From a virus, in the IMG/VR virus record IMGVR_UViG_3300024520_000165, positions 1 through 42,216 of that record: a stretch of 42,216 nt of DNA, one strand, 5' to 3'. Made by a program: the position numbers and the translations under genes. Positions 464 to 35,092 of the stretch are shown here, piece by piece (within the stretch, counting starts at the first letter, position 1; each line of letters begins with the position of its first letter). The notes beneath the pieces are model-generated. The model was not told the origin of the DNA and made no database searches. It was given only the letters and a program-made list of their open reading frames with translations.

Positions 464-850
464 ATGCGACTCGCCCTCCTCGTGGTCCCGCTGGCGCTCC
501 TCGGCGCCGCCATCTTCCCGCCCCAGGTCGGCGGAGACTTCCGCTTCGCCGTGCAGCAGCCCTGCCCGGTCCTCGATGCCGGCGGAGTCCCCGAGGTGCC
601 GCCCGGCCTCTCGGTGGGGATCGAGCCACAGGCTGGCGGGGTGGCGATCCTCTGCATCCCGACCCCAACCTGCGGCCCGGAGACCCGCCACGAGGGTGTG
701 GTGAAGCTGACCGGGAACGCGAAGCGGCAAGCGTACATCGGCCGCGCCTTCACCGAGCTGACCTGCCAGGGGGCAGCCTCCGAGCCGAGTCTCGAGACGG
801 CCTACACCTACCCGGGCATGAAGCCGAAGAAGGCCATCCTCACCGACTGA
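464..850 (+). CDS. Exported four-cysteine hypothetical protein
   Basis: A 128-residue protein with a clear signal peptide (MRLALLVVPLALLGAA) and a mature part with four cysteines (34, 64, 70, 101) that could form two disulfides. It is the only plus-strand gene in the otherwise minus-strand left arm, and it is divergent from the gene starting at 427. No Shine-Dalgarno sequence is visible, and a promoter-like element sits directly before the ATG. It resembles the other exported phage proteins of this genome in design (leader plus Cys pairs) but not in Cys spacing. Function is unknown. The antisense frames are open but lack ribosome-binding sites. Confidence 0.6.
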   Translation: MRLALLVVPLALLGAAIFPPQVGGDFRFAVQQPCPVLDAGGVPEVPPGLSVGIEPQAGGVAILCIPTPTCGPETRHEGVVKLTGNAKRQAYIGRAFTELTCQGAASEPSLETAYTYPGMKPKKAILTD

Positions 851-24468: not shown

Positions 24469-26091
24469 ATGACGATCTCGGTCACGACAGTCAAGGAAGA
24501 GTCCGTAGGCCCCGGCACGGCTGCACCGTTCAGCCCCCTCATCGAAGGGTGGGCGGCTTCAGAGTTCGTCGTCTACGAGCGGACTGACGCGACGGGCGTG
24601 TCCGTCCTGCTGACCGATGGTGTCGAGTACACGAGCGCGATGGCGAGCCCGCTGCCTGCCCGCATCACCATCACCCCCGCTGCCTCTCGCGCCGGGACCG
24701 TGACGTGGGTGGTGTACCGGGTCACGCCCGCCACCCAGGCGCTCGACTACGTCGCACAGGGCACCTTCCCCGCCGAGAGCCACGAGCAGGGCCTCGACCG
24801 CGCGGCCGCCCGCAGCCAGGAGCACGACTTCTACCGGGACCGCTCGATGCGGCTCGACGAGAAGGACAACGACCGGGACATGGTGCTCCCGCTCGAGGCC
24901 GCTCGCGCCACCTTCTACGCCGCCTACGATGCGAACGGGCAGCCGACCGCGATCGACCCTTCAACCCTCACCCCCACTCCCGTGAGCCTCGGGGCTCCCG
25001 CCCAGACCCTCCTCCCCTACGCGACCGAGGCCCTGTGGCGCACCTTCCTCGACCTCATCGAGGACAAGGGCGACCTCGAGGTGGTGCAAGCTGGCACCGA
25101 GGCAGCACGCGCAGCCATCGGAGCGGCCGCATTCGGCAAGGGGGTGTGGGTCACGACCGACACCAACCAACTCTGGTACTGCGACGGCGTGACGTGGCAG
25201 CAGCTCGTCATCGAGCAGCTTGCCCGGTCCGCCATTGCAACCTCGATCGCAGGCCGGATCATCCTCGACACCGACCGTCTCGAGCTCGTGTACGACAACG
25301 GCGTCACAACGCCACCGATCCGCACCCTGCCCCCCAACCACCTCGATGGGCTGTCCATGTCGTGGGTCGATGCCACCAACTTCCAGCTCGAGAGCGGGAG
25401 CTGCCGATCCAACGCAGATGTGGGGCAAGGCTCGCTCGGTGCTTCCATGAGCAAGCTCCGCAACACCGCTGGTGTCTGGACCGCTGGCGCGGCTGGCAAC
25501 ATGCTCGACATCACGGCCGGTGCCACGCTCGGAACCGATACGTGGTACTGGGTCTTCGCCCTCCTCAAGCCCGATGGCACGCTGGACTGGGGGATCGACG
25601 ACAGCGCAACCGCCGCCAACCTCCTCGCTGGTGGTAGTGGCGCGACAGTGGCCGGCTTCACCACCTACCGCCGCGTCGGTATGGTGAAGACCAACGCAAC
25701 AGGGCTCGGGGAATTCGACCAGTGGAACCAGGTAGGCGATCAGTTCACATGGCAAACGCCTCTCGTCTACGACACGGGCGCGAGCGTGAGCTGGGCGGTG
25801 GGATCCAACATCGACCTAACCACCATCGCCCCCCCGTCCATGCTGTGCGACCTCGGCTGCCACGGTGGCATCACGTCCGGGCTTGGCATATTCGCCGAGA
25901 CAGTGACGATCGCTGCTCCCAGCAAGACCGTCGTCCCAGGCTACAACGTGGAGCCCGGCGCCGAGATCGCTCGGCTTCTGCTGCGAACCAACGTATCCAA
26001 CCAAATTCGCTACCGGCACAGTGATGCCACTGTCCAACGACCGTATGTCCATTGCTACGGGTGGTTCGACCCCCGAGGCAAGGATGCCTAG
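24469..26091 (+). CDS. Tail fibre / receptor-binding protein
   Basis: A 540-residue protein. Residues 1-160 follow the T7 gp17 N-terminal anchor plan: a beta-rich domain with GVSVLLTDGVEY, ITPAASRAGTVTWVVYRVTP, a DYVAQGTFPAESHEQGLDRAAARSQ block and a short coil. A linker region follows, and from about residue 290 there is a beta-rich tip domain (TWYWVFALLKPDGTLDWGID, YRRVGMVKTNATGLGEFDQ, GDQFTW) of a type seen in other podovirus fibres. GGAG lies before the ATG. It attaches at the connector-nozzle junction and binds the host. Confidence 0.88.
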   Translation: MTISVTTVKEESVGPGTAAPFSPLIEGWAASEFVVYERTDATGVSVLLTDGVEYTSAMASPLPARITITPAASRAGTVTWVVYRVTPATQALDYVAQGTFPAESHEQGLDRAAARSQEHDFYRDRSMRLDEKDNDRDMVLPLEAARATFYAAYDANGQPTAIDPSTLTPTPVSLGAPAQTLLPYATEALWRTFLDLIEDKGDLEVVQAGTEAARAAIGAAAFGKGVWVTTDTNQLWYCDGVTWQQLVIEQLARSAIATSIAGRIILDTDRLELVYDNGVTTPPIRTLPPNHLDGLSMSWVDATNFQLESGSCRSNADVGQGSLGASMSKLRNTAGVWTAGAAGNMLDITAGATLGTDTWYWVFALLKPDGTLDWGIDDSATAANLLAGGSGATVAGFTTYRRVGMVKTNATGLGEFDQWNQVGDQFTWQTPLVYDTGASVSWAVGSNIDLTTIAPPSMLCDLGCHGGITSGLGIFAETVTIAAPSKTVVPGYNVEPGAEIARLLLRTNVSNQIRYRHSDATVQRPYVHCYGWFDPRGKDA

Positions 26092-26100
26092 GAGGATCCC

Positions 26101-26577
26101 ATGCCCCGTCTCATCATCCTGCTTGCTCTGCTCTCCGTCTTCTTCGCGCTTCCAGGCAGCGCCGTCGATGGTGGTGCGTGCGACTCCGACATCGCACCGC
26201 CCGCCGGCTCGATCTGCGTCCAGCTCTGCGATGGCAAGGCTGCGGGTGCTGGCACGTGCGCTGCCTACGGGATCGGACGCGAAGAAGCCACGCTCGTGCT
26301 CGAGATGGAGGACATGACGAACGCCTGCACCGATGCCGGCGGTCCGAAGTTCCACTTCCGCACCTCACCTCGAAGCGACGGGGACGGATCCACGGCAGGC
26401 AAGGAGTGGTACGACCTGGCCGGCTCGACCGTCACGTTGGATGCCACCACCAACCGGATCGTCATCGACATGCAGTCCGCGCAGATCGACGCCTGGCTCC
26501 ACACCGAGATGGACGCAGCGTTCGACACCAACTGCGCCGAGGTGGACGTGAGGCTCTACCGCCTCCAGAAGAGGTAG
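26101..26577 (+). CDS. Exported six-cysteine hypothetical protein
   Basis: A 158-residue protein with a signal peptide (LIILLALLSVFFALPGSA, cleavage near Ala21) and cysteines at 27, 39, 43, 53, 76 and 145. An AGGAGG ribosome-binding site precedes ATG. The mature part begins Cys-rich and then looks like a small beta-rich domain (SKEWYDLAGSTVTLD-type alternation). It lies nine bases after the fibre gene and opens the exported cassette. Fibre-linked function, envelope modification and superinfection exclusion are all possible; nothing decides between them. Confidence 0.72.
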   Translation: MPRLIILLALLSVFFALPGSAVDGGACDSDIAPPAGSICVQLCDGKAAGAGTCAAYGIGREEATLVLEMEDMTNACTDAGGPKFHFRTSPRSDGDGSTAGKEWYDLAGSTVTLDATTNRIVIDMQSAQIDAWLHTEMDAAFDTNCAEVDVRLYRLQKR

Positions 26578-26579
26578 CG

Positions 26580-27854
26580 ATGCGGCTCATCCTCCTGCTC
26601 ATCATCGCCGCCCTCTGCATGGGAACGGGGTTCGTGGGGAGCAAGGGCAGCCACACTGGTGGCAAGCCCGCGAACCTCTACGCCGTGACCTACAACCCCT
26701 ATGCGGGTGTCGACCTCACGACTGCGAACCGGCAGAAGACCTCCATCCACAGCCACCCCGAAGACACGGCCGCCGACTACGACGCTGCGGGGTACGAGGC
26801 AATGACGTGGTCCCACTACAGCGGCGGCTACTCGACAGGCGGTGGGCCTTGCGTGTGCAAGGGATGGTGCAACGGAAGGGCCTGGCCGGCCGAAGACAAC
26901 GCCATCTCGAACGCGCCCGCCATCAGCGGCATGACGAACCTGCTGTTCTACATCCTGGGCAGCGAGGAAACAGGACTCAATGCGGTCGGAGGTGGCAACT
27001 CCCACACCTACTCCCTCTTCATGGAGGAGTACATCATGGGCCCGGGCTGCCCGACCTGTAACTCAGGCGGTCCACTCGGCATCGTCGCCACATGCAACCC
27101 CACCATCGACCCTGCCAACGTGTACGTCGGCAACACCTCGAACGGCATGACGCTCGACCTGCTCGACACCGTCAAAGAGGTGGACCCTTCCGCCTTCTTG
27201 ATGATCGCCCACCCCACCAGCGTGATCGGGGCCTACACGAACCTCACCCAAGTCGGTGGCATCGCGATCTACAACAACCTCTACGGGTTGCAGGACGAGT
27301 TCAACGCCGACACCGTCTTTCAGGACGCCTTCCGCGTAGCGTGGGACGCTGTGCTCTCGACCTTCTCGCCCAAGATCTGGGGCATCTCGAGCAACGACCA
27401 CAAGGGGCCAAGCCTCCCACTCGTAGGATCTACACCGCCCTACCCCGTCATCACCACCGCCAACCGAGACGCCGGCTACATCGTGGTGCTCTCGCCGGGC
27501 ACCACCTACGCGGAGTGGGAGACATCCTTCAGAGCCGGAGCCTTCTTCTCCATGAAGGATGCTCAGTTCCCCAAGGAGGGCGGGCCAAACGTCGAGACCA
27601 TCACGGTCACCGACACCACGATCAGCCTCACCACCACGGACGACGACGAGACGCTGACGTGGCGAGCCAACAACGGTGAGATCCTCGACACAGACGTGGG
27701 TCCGGCCGGCTTCTCGTTCGACCTCTCCGCCCTGGCCCACCGCCCGGACTACACCTACGTGCGCGCCACGCTGGTCGACGCGCAGGGGCGCAAGACCTGG
27801 GTGCAGCCCTTCTCGGTCCAGACCGTGGCCCCGGGCACGAGGCACATCCGATGA
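26580..27854 (+). CDS. Exported PHP-type metallohydrolase (CehA/McbA-like)
   Basis: A 424-residue protein. After a signal peptide (residues 1-18) the PHP-like pattern appears. RQKTSIHSHPE carries the HxH pair (His57, His59), and GYEAMTWSHY supplies His79. LGSEET has an acidic residue, MIAHPTS gives a His near 209, and SSNDHKG a Asp-His pair near 273. The C-terminal part (about 330-424) is an Ig-like beta domain ending in VRATLVDAQGRKTWVQPF, as in secreted CehA/McbA-type PHP proteins. Those hydrolyse phosphate or carbamate esters using two or three metals. A substrate cannot be inferred. ATG 26580 overlaps nothing; AGAGGT lies upstream. Confidence 0.75.
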   Translation: MRLILLLIIAALCMGTGFVGSKGSHTGGKPANLYAVTYNPYAGVDLTTANRQKTSIHSHPEDTAADYDAAGYEAMTWSHYSGGYSTGGGPCVCKGWCNGRAWPAEDNAISNAPAISGMTNLLFYILGSEETGLNAVGGGNSHTYSLFMEEYIMGPGCPTCNSGGPLGIVATCNPTIDPANVYVGNTSNGMTLDLLDTVKEVDPSAFLMIAHPTSVIGAYTNLTQVGGIAIYNNLYGLQDEFNADTVFQDAFRVAWDAVLSTFSPKIWGISSNDHKGPSLPLVGSTPPYPVITTANRDAGYIVVLSPGTTYAEWETSFRAGAFFSMKDAQFPKEGGPNVETITVTDTTISLTTTDDDETLTWRANNGEILDTDVGPAGFSFDLSALAHRPDYTYVRATLVDAQGRKTWVQPFSVQTVAPGTRHIR

Positions 27855-28333
27855 AACGACTGGCCCTCATCGCCCTCGTCCTGCTGCTGGTGGGCGGAAC
27901 CCGCTTCATCCCGCAGCAGCCACGCCACAGCGAGGAGCTCTACACCTACCGCAACGCTCCCGTCTACGATGGCTTCTGCGCGCTCCAGTCCAGCGCCCAA
28001 CACATCGCAGTCTGGCGTGCGTGCAGCGACAACCGGGACACCCGCTACCGCTGGCCTCGCTCCGCCACCATCACCCACATCGGGTTCCGCATCCGTACTG
28101 CGTTCCCCGCTGGTGGCGGTTGCATCTTCAACCTCGACGTGAACGATGCGCTCCAGTACACCACGGCTGCGCTCACCAGCGCTTCGGGAACCTGGGTGGA
28201 GTTCGTTCTCCCCACCCCGGTCACGATCGCGAAGGGTGACATCACCACCGTCGAAGCCCTCAACGGGGGCGGCGAGACCTGCACCGACAACGTGGCGTGG
28301 GTGGCTCCCGCCTTCTACGGGACGTTCCAATGA
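27851..28333 (+). CDS. Exported protein with one four-Cys beta domain
   Basis: A 160-residue protein. A signal peptide (MKRLALIALVLLLVGG) is followed by one domain with Cys43, Cys58, Cys91 and Cys144 (gaps 15, 33, 53). The gaps are identical to those of the second domain of the next gene and close to the first. The body alternates in beta fashion (ATITHIGFRIRTAFPAGG, GTWVEFVLPTPVTIAKGD), like small receptor- or sugar-binding beta-sandwiches. The ATG lies in an ATGA overlap with the PHP gene. It is likely exported and oxidised in the periplasm. Function is unknown. Confidence 0.75.
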   Translation: MKRLALIALVLLLVGGTRFIPQQPRHSEELYTYRNAPVYDGFCALQSSAQHIAVWRACSDNRDTRYRWPRSATITHIGFRIRTAFPAGGGCIFNLDVNDALQYTTAALTSASGTWVEFVLPTPVTIAKGDITTVEALNGGGETCTDNVAWVAPAFYGTFQ

Positions 28334-29292
28334 AGCACGTCAGCATCCTCCTGGTCTTGCTCCTCTGCCTGCTTGGGGTCACCCGTTCGATCCCCGCCAC
28401 CGACCCCGGCCCCACCGTGGTAGTCCCTTGGGCCACCACGACCGTGGATCTCGACGGCGAGTGCGTTGGTGCTCCCTACATCACCGAGTTCGGCAGCATC
28501 TCCGATGCCTGCTCGGGTGCATCGGCACAACAGTTCCACCAGCACACCCTCGCGCGCAGCATCGTGGTCACTGAAGGCACCGCGCACGTGGGCTACACGG
28601 GCAGCGCCGGCTACGACTGCTCGGTCGTGCTCCAGACAGGCGTGACGCCCTCGGCCCATGCCGACTGGATCCCGATCTACGTCGACGGACTCGATGGCAC
28701 ACTGCACTCACAGCCCCAGCCCAACATCTTCCTACCTGCGGGCACCACGCTCACCATGCGGGTGGACAGCGGAGGGGCCGGATGCGCAGGTGCCACCGAC
28801 CCGACTCTTCGGGTGTCGCTGCTCGGCTACGAGGTGGACGACCAGTGGGAAGCGACGCGCCGCCTGCCTCCCTCGACGCAGCTTCGCAGCTACCAGTGGG
28901 CCAGGACGACGCAGAACAACAACAACGCCGACTGCCACCTCCACCGCGAGCACACCGGGAACTACTGGCATCAGGTCTGCAACGGGGCGAACGGCACGAA
29001 GGTGTGGTTCCGAGACACGTTCACCATCACGGGCCTGATCGCTGCCGTCTCGTACCCCAGCACCTCGCCGTGGCAGTGCGACTACGGGCTGCGGGTCAAC
29101 AACGTGGCGGTCGGCACCATCCTCAACCTCCCCACCGACCCGGCAGCAGGAACGATCCACTACCAGGCGCAGCCCAACATCGTCGTCACGCCCTCCGACT
29201 ATCTCGAGGTGCGAGACGAAGCGATCGGGACCGGATGCCGCAACGGAGCAGGCCCTCATCCCGACAACCAGCTCACAGTGCTGGGCTACTGA
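28330..29292 (+). CDS. Exported protein with two tandem four-Cys beta domains
   Basis: A 320-residue protein with a signal peptide (MKHVSILLVLLLCLLG). Two copies of the same domain follow. The first has Cys45, 61, 97 and 152 (gaps 16, 36, 55). The second has Cys202, 217, 250 and 303 (gaps 15, 33, 53). GTLHSQPQPNI (123-133) and GTIHYQAQPNI (274-284) are equivalent, and both copies end in LGY. The gene arose by duplication together with its neighbour; even the leader ends look alike (GTRFIP versus VTRSIP). Start is in an ATGA overlap. Function is unknown. Confidence 0.78.
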   Translation: MKHVSILLVLLLCLLGVTRSIPATDPGPTVVVPWATTTVDLDGECVGAPYITEFGSISDACSGASAQQFHQHTLARSIVVTEGTAHVGYTGSAGYDCSVVLQTGVTPSAHADWIPIYVDGLDGTLHSQPQPNIFLPAGTTLTMRVDSGGAGCAGATDPTLRVSLLGYEVDDQWEATRRLPPSTQLRSYQWARTTQNNNNADCHLHREHTGNYWHQVCNGANGTKVWFRDTFTITGLIAAVSYPSTSPWQCDYGLRVNNVAVGTILNLPTDPAAGTIHYQAQPNIVVTPSDYLEVRDEAIGTGCRNGAGPHPDNQLTVLGY

Positions 29293-29867
29293 TGGTGAAG
29301 CACCCGCATCTCGAGCTGTTCCACATCTTCGTCGAGTTGGTCTACGAGCTCGGCGCAGACTACGACGGGTCGGTCACGAGCTGGGGTCGGACCACCACCC
29401 GCAACACCAAGGTGAAGGGACACGTCTCGTCCTACCACCTGTGGCGGCGAGGCGCACTCGCTGTCGATCTGGTATTCGACAACCCGCAGGTCGCCCTCAA
29501 GGCGGCGGAGGTCGCGCGAGAGTGGGGCCTCGAGATCGAACTGGCGGACGACCACCTCCACGTGGAGCTGGATCCTCGCCACTGGAAGGGAGACAAAGCG
29601 ATGAGTCAGAAGACAGTGCTTGGCCAGTCGGTCGGAGCCACACCCGAAGGACGAGACGCCACGGCAGCAGTGCCGGGCGCGACACGGGATGCCGTCATTG
29701 CCGCCTTGGGTGGTTGGGTAGCGGCTGCGGTGATGGTGAAGACGGGGAGTCCCGAGCTGGCACACGCTGCCGATGCTGCCTTGCAGGGATGGGTGCCCCA
29801 GATCCTCGGCATCGTGTTCGGTGGCTTGACGTTGTTCCGCAAGAGCGTCGTCAACCAGATCAAGTAG
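29292..29867 (+). CDS. M15-like peptidase endolysin fused to membrane tail
   Basis: A 191-residue protein. Residues 1-100 resemble M15-type peptidoglycan peptidases: VSSYHLWRRGALAVDL carries a metal-ligand His49 and Asp59, and DDHLHVEL gives His88/His90. The His-to-Asp gap is wider than the usual SxHxxGxAxD. From residue about 120 there are two hydrophobic segments (VIAALGGWVAAAVMV and WVPQILGIVFGGLTLF), unusual for an endolysin and more like a small holin. ATG overlaps the previous stop (TGATG). It would cut cell-wall cross-links at lysis. Confidence 0.72.
   Translation: MVKHPHLELFHIFVELVYELGADYDGSVTSWGRTTTRNTKVKGHVSSYHLWRRGALAVDLVFDNPQVALKAAEVAREWGLEIELADDHLHVELDPRHWKGDKAMSQKTVLGQSVGATPEGRDATAAVPGATRDAVIAALGGWVAAAVMVKTGSPELAHAADAALQGWVPQILGIVFGGLTLFRKSVVNQIK
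29601..29867 (+). other. Possible internal translation start giving an 88-residue holin-like protein
   Basis: In-frame ATG 29601 within the endolysin gene has GGGAG eleven bases upstream. It would yield just the membrane part: a short polar head, two hydrophobic helices and a basic tail (FRKSVVNQIK), a plausible class II holin. No other holin candidate lies nearby. If used, one gene would give both the enzyme and the pore. Confidence 0.4.
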
Positions 29868-30344: not shown

Positions 30345-30728
30345 GTGAGTCGTGGGTGGGTGGGAGGGGTACTCTCACTCGTCCTGCTCGTCTCCTGTCA
30401 GTGCGCGACTGGCGTTGGACACTGGTGGGAGGCGAGCGACACCGTGCTCATGGTGGGGGCAGGCGACGGGCAGTGCTCGAAGTCCCCGGACATCGCAGTC
30501 CATTGCTGCCTGACCCACGACCTGGCCTACGCACGCTCACCCGATCGCAGCGAGCAGTCCCGCTTCATCGCTGATGCGGAACTGCTCGCTTGCTTCGCGT
30601 ACTCGGGTGTGCCCGAGGCCGTGGCCTCCACCTACTACGCAGCGGTGAGGCAGTACGGCCAGGAGTCGTGGGAGCGGCACTCTACTTCAGCTTCAGGTTC
30701 CTCTTCTTCCGCAGACGGAAGCCCTTGA
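30345..30728 (+). CDS. Lipoprotein with phospholipase A2-like domain
   Basis: A 127-residue protein from GTG, two bases after the previous stop. Residues 5-18 form a lipoprotein signal with lipobox LVSC (Cys18). The mature part holds GDGQCS, then HCCLTHDLAY, with the phospholipase A2-type His58-Asp59 dyad, Cys54/Cys55 and Tyr62, followed by FIADAELLACF with a second Asp (77). This arrangement matches the CxxHDxxY core and distal Asp of secreted and parvoviral phospholipase A2 folds. It might attack the outer membrane during lysis, taking the place of a spanin; no spanin is visible. The tail overlaps the convergent gene by 47 bases. Confidence 0.65.
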   Translation: MSRGWVGGVLSLVLLVSCQCATGVGHWWEASDTVLMVGAGDGQCSKSPDIAVHCCLTHDLAYARSPDRSEQSRFIADAELLACFAYSGVPEAVASTYYAAVRQYGQESWERHSTSASGSSSSADGSP

Positions 30729-33523: not shown

Positions 33524-35092
33524 CTAGCTCTTCTTCGGGAGCTTCTTCTCCTTGCTCAGTGCGATGATGGGCGCGAGCTTGATGCCCACCACCTTCGCCA
33601 CCTCCTTGATCTCCTTCGGCAGCTCCGGCCTGTACTTCGCAGGCCAGTGCGAGAAGACCACCAGCTCCAGCAGCATAGCGACCTGCTCCGTGGTGCCCTT
33701 CGACTCGATGAGCTGTCGCATCACCGAACCCCACGAGTAACGAGAGGACGACTCCCCTTCCGCCAGCTTCAGGTTGTGTGCCTTGCCGTACTTGTTCATG
33801 GCGAGCGGATCGACACAGCTCACCAGCTCACCAAGGGCGACGCACATCGCAGCATGGAAGGCATCGGGCTCGAGCTCGGCAACGGCCTGCTGCATCTGGA
33901 ACGCCACCTCAGTCACCACCTTCTGGTTCTGCTTGGCTCGGCGCTCGCCCTCCTTCTCCTTGCTCTGTCCCTCCTTGCTCTTCGGGATCGGATCACCCGG
34001 CCGGTAGTCGTCCGTGTATCCGAGCGCCGCATTGGTGGCGAGGCCCTTCTCGATCAGCACCTTCTCGATCACCAGCCGCCTCGCATGTGGGTTCAGCGAG
34101 TAGTCGTCGAGCGGGATGTAGGTCCACGGCTTCACGTCCTTGCCGACCAGCGTCTTGAGCGTCGTCCGTCCCTTCGTCGGTGCGCCCTGGTTGAAGACGC
34201 CCAGGCTCATGGACAGCGGCACCCACCCGTTGGGCTTGTACTCCCGCACCCTGCCCTTGGCATTCTTCCGGTTCATCACCGCCTCGCCAGCTTCCTCAAG
34301 CTGGATCATGCGGACGTCCTGATAGGCCCGCCCCTTCTCATCGAAGCAGCCCTGGTTGGTGCAGCGTGCCTTGTCGCCCAGCTCCTCGAACAAGAAGTCA
34401 CCCTTGTCCGTGTTGTACTGGCATTCCGAGCACGCACCGTTCGGCAAGTCGCTGTCATCCAGCTTCCACGGTGCCTTGCTCAGTAGCTTGACCTCCTTCA
34501 TCAGATCCTGACGGCACCTGTCGAGTGGGGTCGCACCGTTCCAGTCCGTCTCGCACCAGTCGTTGGCGAAGTCGACCAGCTCCTTGCTGTCCTGCACCTG
34601 AGCGAGCAGCCGCATGTGCCCCCACGTGAGGGACTCGTCCTCGTACAGCTTCTTCACCTCGGCCGGCATGTTGCTGATGGACTGGAGCTGACGGATGCGA
34701 TGCGGTGACTCACCGAGATGGTCCGCCACCGCCCGCGCCGAGCTCCGCTCGAGCATGGCGCACACCCGTTCGGCCTGGACGAGAGGATGCACGCTGCGTC
34801 GCTGCTCGTTCTCGACGAACCGGATGCCTTCGATGTCGACGCCCGTCTCGTGGCAATAGCACTCGATCTCGTCGTCGGGTGCGTACCCTGCCGAGGGCAG
34901 AGCCATCAGCCTGCGGCACCCGGCGATGACGTGATAGCCCTCCGTTCCTTCGATGGGCACGACGTGCAATGGATGGAGCAGGCCCACCTCGGTGATGGAC
35001 TGCGCCAGGTCTTCGATCCCGTCGAGCATCCGGTCCCCGTTGGGGTTGTTGGGATGCGGGACGAGTAGCCGTAGCTTGATCGACTCCCTCAA
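33524..35092 (-). CDS. ParB/Sulfiredoxin-superfamily protein with zinc motif
   Basis: A 522-residue protein. Residues 8-110 form a ParB-type domain (SITEVGLLHPLHVVP, then VIAGCRRLMAL with the GxRR motif, then ENEQRRSVHPLVQAERV); residues about 118-160 an HTH-like part (VADHLGESPHRIRQLQSI). In the middle, CSECQ ... CTNQGCF likely binds zinc, as in plasmid and integrative-element ParB-like proteins. The C-terminal 250 residues are unfamiliar. No ParA or centromere repeats are seen, so partition is unlikely; transcription control or DNA nicking is more plausible. Start is in an ATGA overlap. Confidence 0.85.
   Translation of the reverse strand: MRESIKLRLLVPHPNNPNGDRMLDGIEDLAQSITEVGLLHPLHVVPIEGTEGYHVIAGCRRLMALPSAGYAPDDEIECYCHETGVDIEGIRFVENEQRRSVHPLVQAERVCAMLERSSARAVADHLGESPHRIRQLQSISNMPAEVKKLYEDESLTWGHMRLLAQVQDSKELVDFANDWCETDWNGATPLDRCRQDLMKEVKLLSKAPWKLDDSDLPNGACSECQYNTDKGDFLFEELGDKARCTNQGCFDEKGRAYQDVRMIQLEEAGEAVMNRKNAKGRVREYKPNGWVPLSMSLGVFNQGAPTKGRTTLKTLVGKDVKPWTYIPLDDYSLNPHARRLVIEKVLIEKGLATNAALGYTDDYRPGDPIPKSKEGQSKEKEGERRAKQNQKVVTEVAFQMQQAVAELEPDAFHAAMCVALGELVSCVDPLAMNKYGKAHNLKLAEGESSSRYSWGSVMRQLIESKGTTEQVAMLLELVVFSHWPAKYRPELPKEIKEVAKVVGIKLAPIIALSKEKKLPKKS

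Follow-up and report, generated by a model that had tools for sequence, protein, structure and literature searches.

Directly behind the tail fiber of an uncultured podovirus, two adjoining genes, P0001 and P0002, encode predicted exported proteins patterned on four cysteines. What is this domain, and what would a phage do with it outside the cytoplasm? The window that we analyzed is the whole IMG/VR virus record IMGVR_UViG_3300024520_000165 (42,216 bases). Its head and tail genes comprise a podovirus set (terminase, head-tail connector, protease, capsid, tail tubular proteins, internal virion proteins and a T7-gp17-like fiber). Among isolated phages, Pelagibacter phages of the HTVC010P type match best (capsid identity 38-41%), and the gene order of the window is theirs. 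By these sequence comparisons, the window is a podovirus of the HTVC010P type.

The sequence-only reading of this DNA centered on P0001 and P0002 and overlooked two more leader-bearing genes that precede them. Sec-type leaders are present on four consecutive genes (26101, 26580, 27851 and 28330; Table 1), as judged by a simple heuristic scan for a positive N-terminus, a hydrophobic core, a plausible cleavage site and no further membrane helix. The export run as a whole, rather than the cysteine count, is the interesting part of the locus. P0001 and P0002 each have a hydrophobic N-terminus of their own, as had been claimed, and both score as Sec-exported in the scan; the cleavage site of P0001 is weak, and for this reason the protein could be a membrane anchor. 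Their G+C by codon position (0.60/0.52/0.85 for P0001 and 0.63/0.51/0.84 for P0002) is that expected of true genes and follows the pattern of the other genes in the window. The run is compact: 9 bp separate the fiber stop from the 26101 gene and 2 bp separate the latter from the 26580 gene, with ATGA overlaps thereafter. No promoter-like or terminator-like sites were seen on the plus strand inside the run, and the four genes would be co-expressed late with the tail fiber.

Table 1 Features of the export run and its neighbors (window coordinates).
Feature	Position	Strand	Basis
Tail fiber, T7-gp17-like attachment domain, directly upstream of the run	24469..26091	+	PHROGs tail families; Pelagibacter-phage fibers up to 40% identity
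158-aa six-Cys protein, exported (predicted), first of the cassette; ortholog of P0008 in G001	26101..26577	+	BLASTP E 1e-7
424-aa protein, exported (predicted)	26580..27854	+	Leader; PHP-hydrolase-like motifs by eye only
P0001: exported (predicted) 160-aa protein, leader of ~21 residues and one four-Cys domain (Cys 43, 58, 91, 144)	27851..28333	+	ORF, cysteine count, leader scan
P0002: exported (predicted) 320-aa protein, leader and two four-Cys domains	28330..29292	+	ORF, cysteine count, leader scan
P0002 first four-Cys domain, residues 35-168 (Cys 45, 61, 97, 152)	28432..28833	+	Homologous to second half, E 2e-8
P0002 second four-Cys domain, residues 191-320 (Cys 202, 217, 250, 303)	28900..29289	+	Model pLDDT 63.7, pTM 0.62; C1q/TNF-like and fiber-tip fold matches
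M15-like endolysin (probable), hydrophobic C-terminus, directly downstream	29292..29867	+	Weak: PHROGs endolysin E 0.017, Pfam M15_3 E 0.18

Some neighboring genes have features of their own. The 26580 product contains IHSH, SHY, AHP and NDHK motifs that recall PHP phosphoesterases, followed by a beta-rich C-terminus; a PHP domain was not assigned, as the motifs were seen by eye only and the PF02811 model gave no match. The probable endolysin seems to combine, in a single frame, an M15-like peptidase (SxHxxxxAxD, HLHVE) with a tail that is hydrophobic and holin-like. Farther downstream, the gene at 30345-30728 encodes a lipoprotein-like leader (LLVSC lipobox) and then a Cys-rich domain containing CCxxHD, phospholipase-A2-like by eye, with matches to PHROGs phrog_6098 (E 9e-9) and phrog_1158 and none to Pfam.

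The cysteine gaps are exactly those counted earlier, 15-33-53 in P0001 and 16-36-55 and 15-33-53 in the two halves of P0002, which has an additional Cys13 inside its leader. The motifs GTLHSQPQPNI and GTIHYQAQPNI are both found in the P0002 halves. LGY, described as terminal, is indeed common to both halves but is C-terminal only in the second, an E following the first. In 200,000 random placements of four cysteines, the exact 15-33-53 spacing never arose, and gaps within 3 residues at each position arose in 0.1%. Among 2,370 consecutive four-Cys windows taken from ORFs of related phage loci, none came within 3 of 15-34-54. The four-Cys spacing is far beyond chance.

A duplicated exported beta domain, as proposed from the letters, is supported for both halves of the 28330 gene. 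They align with each other by BLASTP at 27% over 109 aa (E 2e-8), a score that 0 of 1,000 shuffles equaled, and at the level of sequence they are homologous, internal duplicates. For the 27851 gene, the same proposal is plausible only. Pairwise scores of P0001 against the P0002 halves do not reach significance (shuffle p 0.18 and 0.68), a profile test with the cysteines fixed did not confirm homology to the P0002 domains (p about 0.18), and the smoothed hydropathy of P0001 has no peak at the Cys register. All three results would suit a P0001 unrelated to P0002, in which the cysteine match is a coincidence and the duplication involves two copies only; this alternative bears on the anatomy and can be combined with any of the functional readings. 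However, when P0001 is laid gap-free on the second half of P0002 in Cys register, its non-Cys residues beat shuffled ones (p 0.005, and p 0.019 over a longer stretch). A coincidence would also have to cover the exact 15-33-53 spacing, the adjoining position of the genes, the leaders, which end alike (G, then T-R-x-I-P, in both proteins), and the matching strands of the models. Because the ordinary sequence scores are null, yet the in-register comparison and the alike leader ends point to kinship, we call P0001 a probable, although unproven, third copy of the domain, and an unrelated P0001 unlikely. Two wider kinships were rejected: that of the four-Cys domain with the four-Cys exported proteins P0009 and P0010 of a related phage, G001 (unsupported, hhalign P 0.27), and that of the four-Cys domain with the six-Cys neighbor 26101 (weak, hhalign P 0.003, probability 10%).

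The domain had been called unrecognized, which is true of its sequence and untrue of its predicted fold. P0001 and P0002 fall in no Pfam, PHROGs, NCBIfam or PADLOC family, no defense-system family was found for them, and tblastn gave no match in phages. Relatives were likewise absent from the viral_contigs, genome_contigs and phages sets, the scans of viral and genome contigs being made with short peptide patterns, which miss distant relatives. A profile of the three aligned copies matched neither the solved structures nor the 48 related virus records, and the C1q model PF00386 had no match in the window at E up to 10. P0001 and P0002 are an orphan family in these collections; it occupies a known genomic slot and probably has a known fold.

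We predicted the fold with AlphaFold2 from an alignment of all three copies. When the second P0002 half heads this alignment, the model has ten strands (pLDDT 63.7, pTM 0.62); when P0001 does, confidence is lower (pLDDT 51.5, pTM 0.45). The strands of the P0001 model coincide with those of the P0002 model at an 11-residue shift, and the same shift superposes the four cysteines. The expectation that the copies would co-superpose is borne out in that the strands coincide in register; since both jobs used alignments with the same three sequences, this agreement is not independent. Foldseek matches among solved structures include the C1q/TNF-like head of F-BclA, Cbln1, EDA, adiponectin, carbohydrate-binding modules and some unrelated beta folds. 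The viral matches are to fiber proteins and collagen-like tips, with many entries common to both models and TM-scores of ~0.4-0.55 for the fold matches. The C1q/TNF class was taken to be marked by a jelly roll whose ten strands run A A' B' B C D E F G H, and ten is the strand number of the second-domain model. The four-Cys unit is probably a C1q/TNF-like ten-strand jelly roll, as judged from models of low to moderate confidence built on three sequences. In this topology, Cys3 would precede strand D and Cys4 would follow its neighbor, strand G, and Cys1 and Cys2 would flank the A'-B' turn; because of these places, disulfides Cys1-Cys2 and Cys3-Cys4 are plausible. The predicted ten-strand jelly roll is shared with C1q/TNF-like heads (the F-BclA C-terminal domain, Cbln1, EDA and phage collagen-like fiber tips), which are among the best Foldseek matches. 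Unlike those heads, the P0001 and P0002 domains have four conserved cysteines and a leader, and lack a PF00386 match and a collagen stalk.

A comparable run exists in related phages. Of the relatives found, G001 is the closest (57% in the capsid, 60% in the terminase). Its minus strand carries the fiber, next a short hydrophobic protein, and after it four leader-bearing genes in a row. The first of these, P0008, is orthologous to the 26101 gene (26%, E 1e-7), with Cys gaps of 11-4-11-21-66 against 12-4-10-23-69; the profile match of this pair is to be read knowing that the profile included the target sequence itself. Four cysteines also mark the second and third proteins, which are not demonstrably of the same domain as P0001 and P0002. 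These neighboring exported proteins (L174 9612-10439 and 8965-9615, both on the minus strand) share a Cys-Met-x-Thr near the end and are possibly another local duplication. The fiber tips differ between the window and G001, and so do most cassette members, with one recognizable ortholog. In L089, a phage contig placed in a Phycisphaerales genome bin, two predicted exported genes stand directly behind the fiber. The larger product (1,024 aa, L089 12223-15297) has a carbohydrate-esterase (SASA) domain above the cut-off (PF03629), LamG-like parts and a C-terminal region that matches a virion structural family. Of 51 related records in which the fiber is followed by 1.5 kb or more, only the window, G001 and L089 have at least two leader-like genes there; the heuristic counts three in the window, not four, as the 26580 gene is hidden within a longer open frame. 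Baldr and HTVC010P use the same genomic slot for fiber-like or virion proteins, including fiber-like beta proteins such as are predicted in the window; unlike P0001 and P0002, these lack leaders, have few or no cysteines and are not exported. The fiber-linked position and the recurrence in G001 and L089 favor a host-surface role for the exported proteins.

Precedents for such an arrangement exist. The gene order in lambda is J-lom-tail fiber, and that in N15 is tail tip fiber, outer membrane protein, membrane-associated protein, Cor and tail fiber. Like the cassette proteins, which are predicted to be exported, lambda Lom (Ail/Lom family) is an exported surface protein encoded beside the host-specificity gene (J). 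Lom is an outer-membrane barrel; P0002, in contrast, gives only a sub-threshold match to PF06316 (Ail_Lom; E 0.064, 13.4 bits vs a cut-off of 23), and an Ail/Lom identity was rejected. In T5, llp adjoins pb5, and its product acts from the periplasm to jam the receptor FhuA; an intramolecular disulfide is described for Llp and Cor (PMC9586334). As is predicted for the cassette proteins, T5 Llp and Cor (T1, phi80, N15) are exported phage proteins encoded beside a receptor-binding or tail-tip gene. P0001 and P0002 share this adjacency, standing in an operon-like run behind the tail fiber with two exported genes between. Llp and Cor are small lipoproteins, whereas P0001 (160 aa) and P0002 (320 aa) have no lipobox in the leader scan, are predicted to be jelly-roll-like and belong to a run of four genes. 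Membership among the Llp/Cor-type lipoproteins was rejected on the missing lipobox, and no sequence relation to Llp or Cor was seen in the family and phage searches.

Because lambda, N15 and T5 have exported genes beside host-specificity genes, the cassette may act on the surface structure that the fiber uses. Our best, though tentative, reading of the four genes is a fiber-linked export cassette acting on host receptors by binding or altering them, a possibility short of an expectation. Four Sec-exported proteins would be made late together with the tail fiber, each four-Cys unit being a disulfide-stabilized C1q/TNF-like jelly roll; the double domain of P0002 would derive from internal duplication, the single-domain P0001 probably being an older copy. 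The proteins would enter the periplasm or reach the outer surface of the infected cell, and bind, cap or help alter the structure recognized by the adjoining fiber. Progeny could then no longer re-adsorb to the cell that made them or to its debris, and other phages would be kept from superinfecting it, as with Llp (T5) and Cor (N15). If this is true, superinfection exclusion and receptor masking, so far known from a few coliphages with small lipoproteins, would have a large multi-gene answer of their own in uncultured phages of the HTVC010P-type lineage, by way of fiber-tip-like disulfide domains. A search for others can follow a simple rule: successive leader-bearing genes placed immediately after the tail fiber. 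Against the cassette reading, P0001 and P0002 are not lipoproteins and are far larger than Llp or Cor; moreover, the gene after the fiber in the leaderless relatives resembles a virion fiber component, which favors its main rival.

In that rival, the proteins are accessory fiber or adhesin parts of the virion, exported first so that their disulfides form, and joining virions at or after lysis. The slot behind the fiber normally holds tail-fiber-like proteins: the leaderless Baldr gene next to the fiber matches tail-fiber families and has an end that is jelly-roll-like by eye, the HTVC010P gene in the same slot is annotated as virion structural, and the exported L089 protein ends in its virion structural match. 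The fold matches of the four-Cys models are also mostly fiber tips, and a cryoconite phage has a putative receptor-binding gene with a C1q domain downstream of its tail fiber (PMC7468147). However, the profile comparison of the four-Cys domain with the Baldr slot protein is not significant, and P0001 and P0002 show neither a coiled coil nor an attachment domain. We also know of no tailed phage whose fiber parts are assembled from the periplasm. On balance, a virion role is unlikely, though to be reckoned with. Quite unlikely, in our estimate, is a combination in which accessory fiber-tip proteins, sent through Sec for periplasmic disulfide folding, either become part of the virion at lysis or, as free exported blockers, saturate the dying cell's receptors.

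The position of the cassette between the fiber and the probable endolysin, together with the exported carbohydrate esterase of L089, would suit late exported helpers of envelope remodeling or lysis, which loosen the envelope with the downstream endolysin and the lipoprotein at 30345-30728. We consider this rather unlikely: the four-Cys domains belong to no recognized catalytic family, and lysis proteins are usually more widely conserved than the cassette genes. The variable content and the lack of relatives would fit accessory cargo, that is, morons that have nothing to do with infecting the same cell, such as surface proteins that aid the host or act on predators or neighbors. Against this, no integrase was seen in the window among the families searched in a partial annotation, and the apparent late co-expression with the fiber and the conserved position point to a function in lytic growth; morons are accordingly improbable.

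Two genes elsewhere in the record also drew attention. Near its left end, a small protein (window 464-850) has a signal-peptide-like start and no Pfam match. In the early region, on the minus strand, a 522-aa protein (33524-35092) has a ParB-like domain at its N-terminus.
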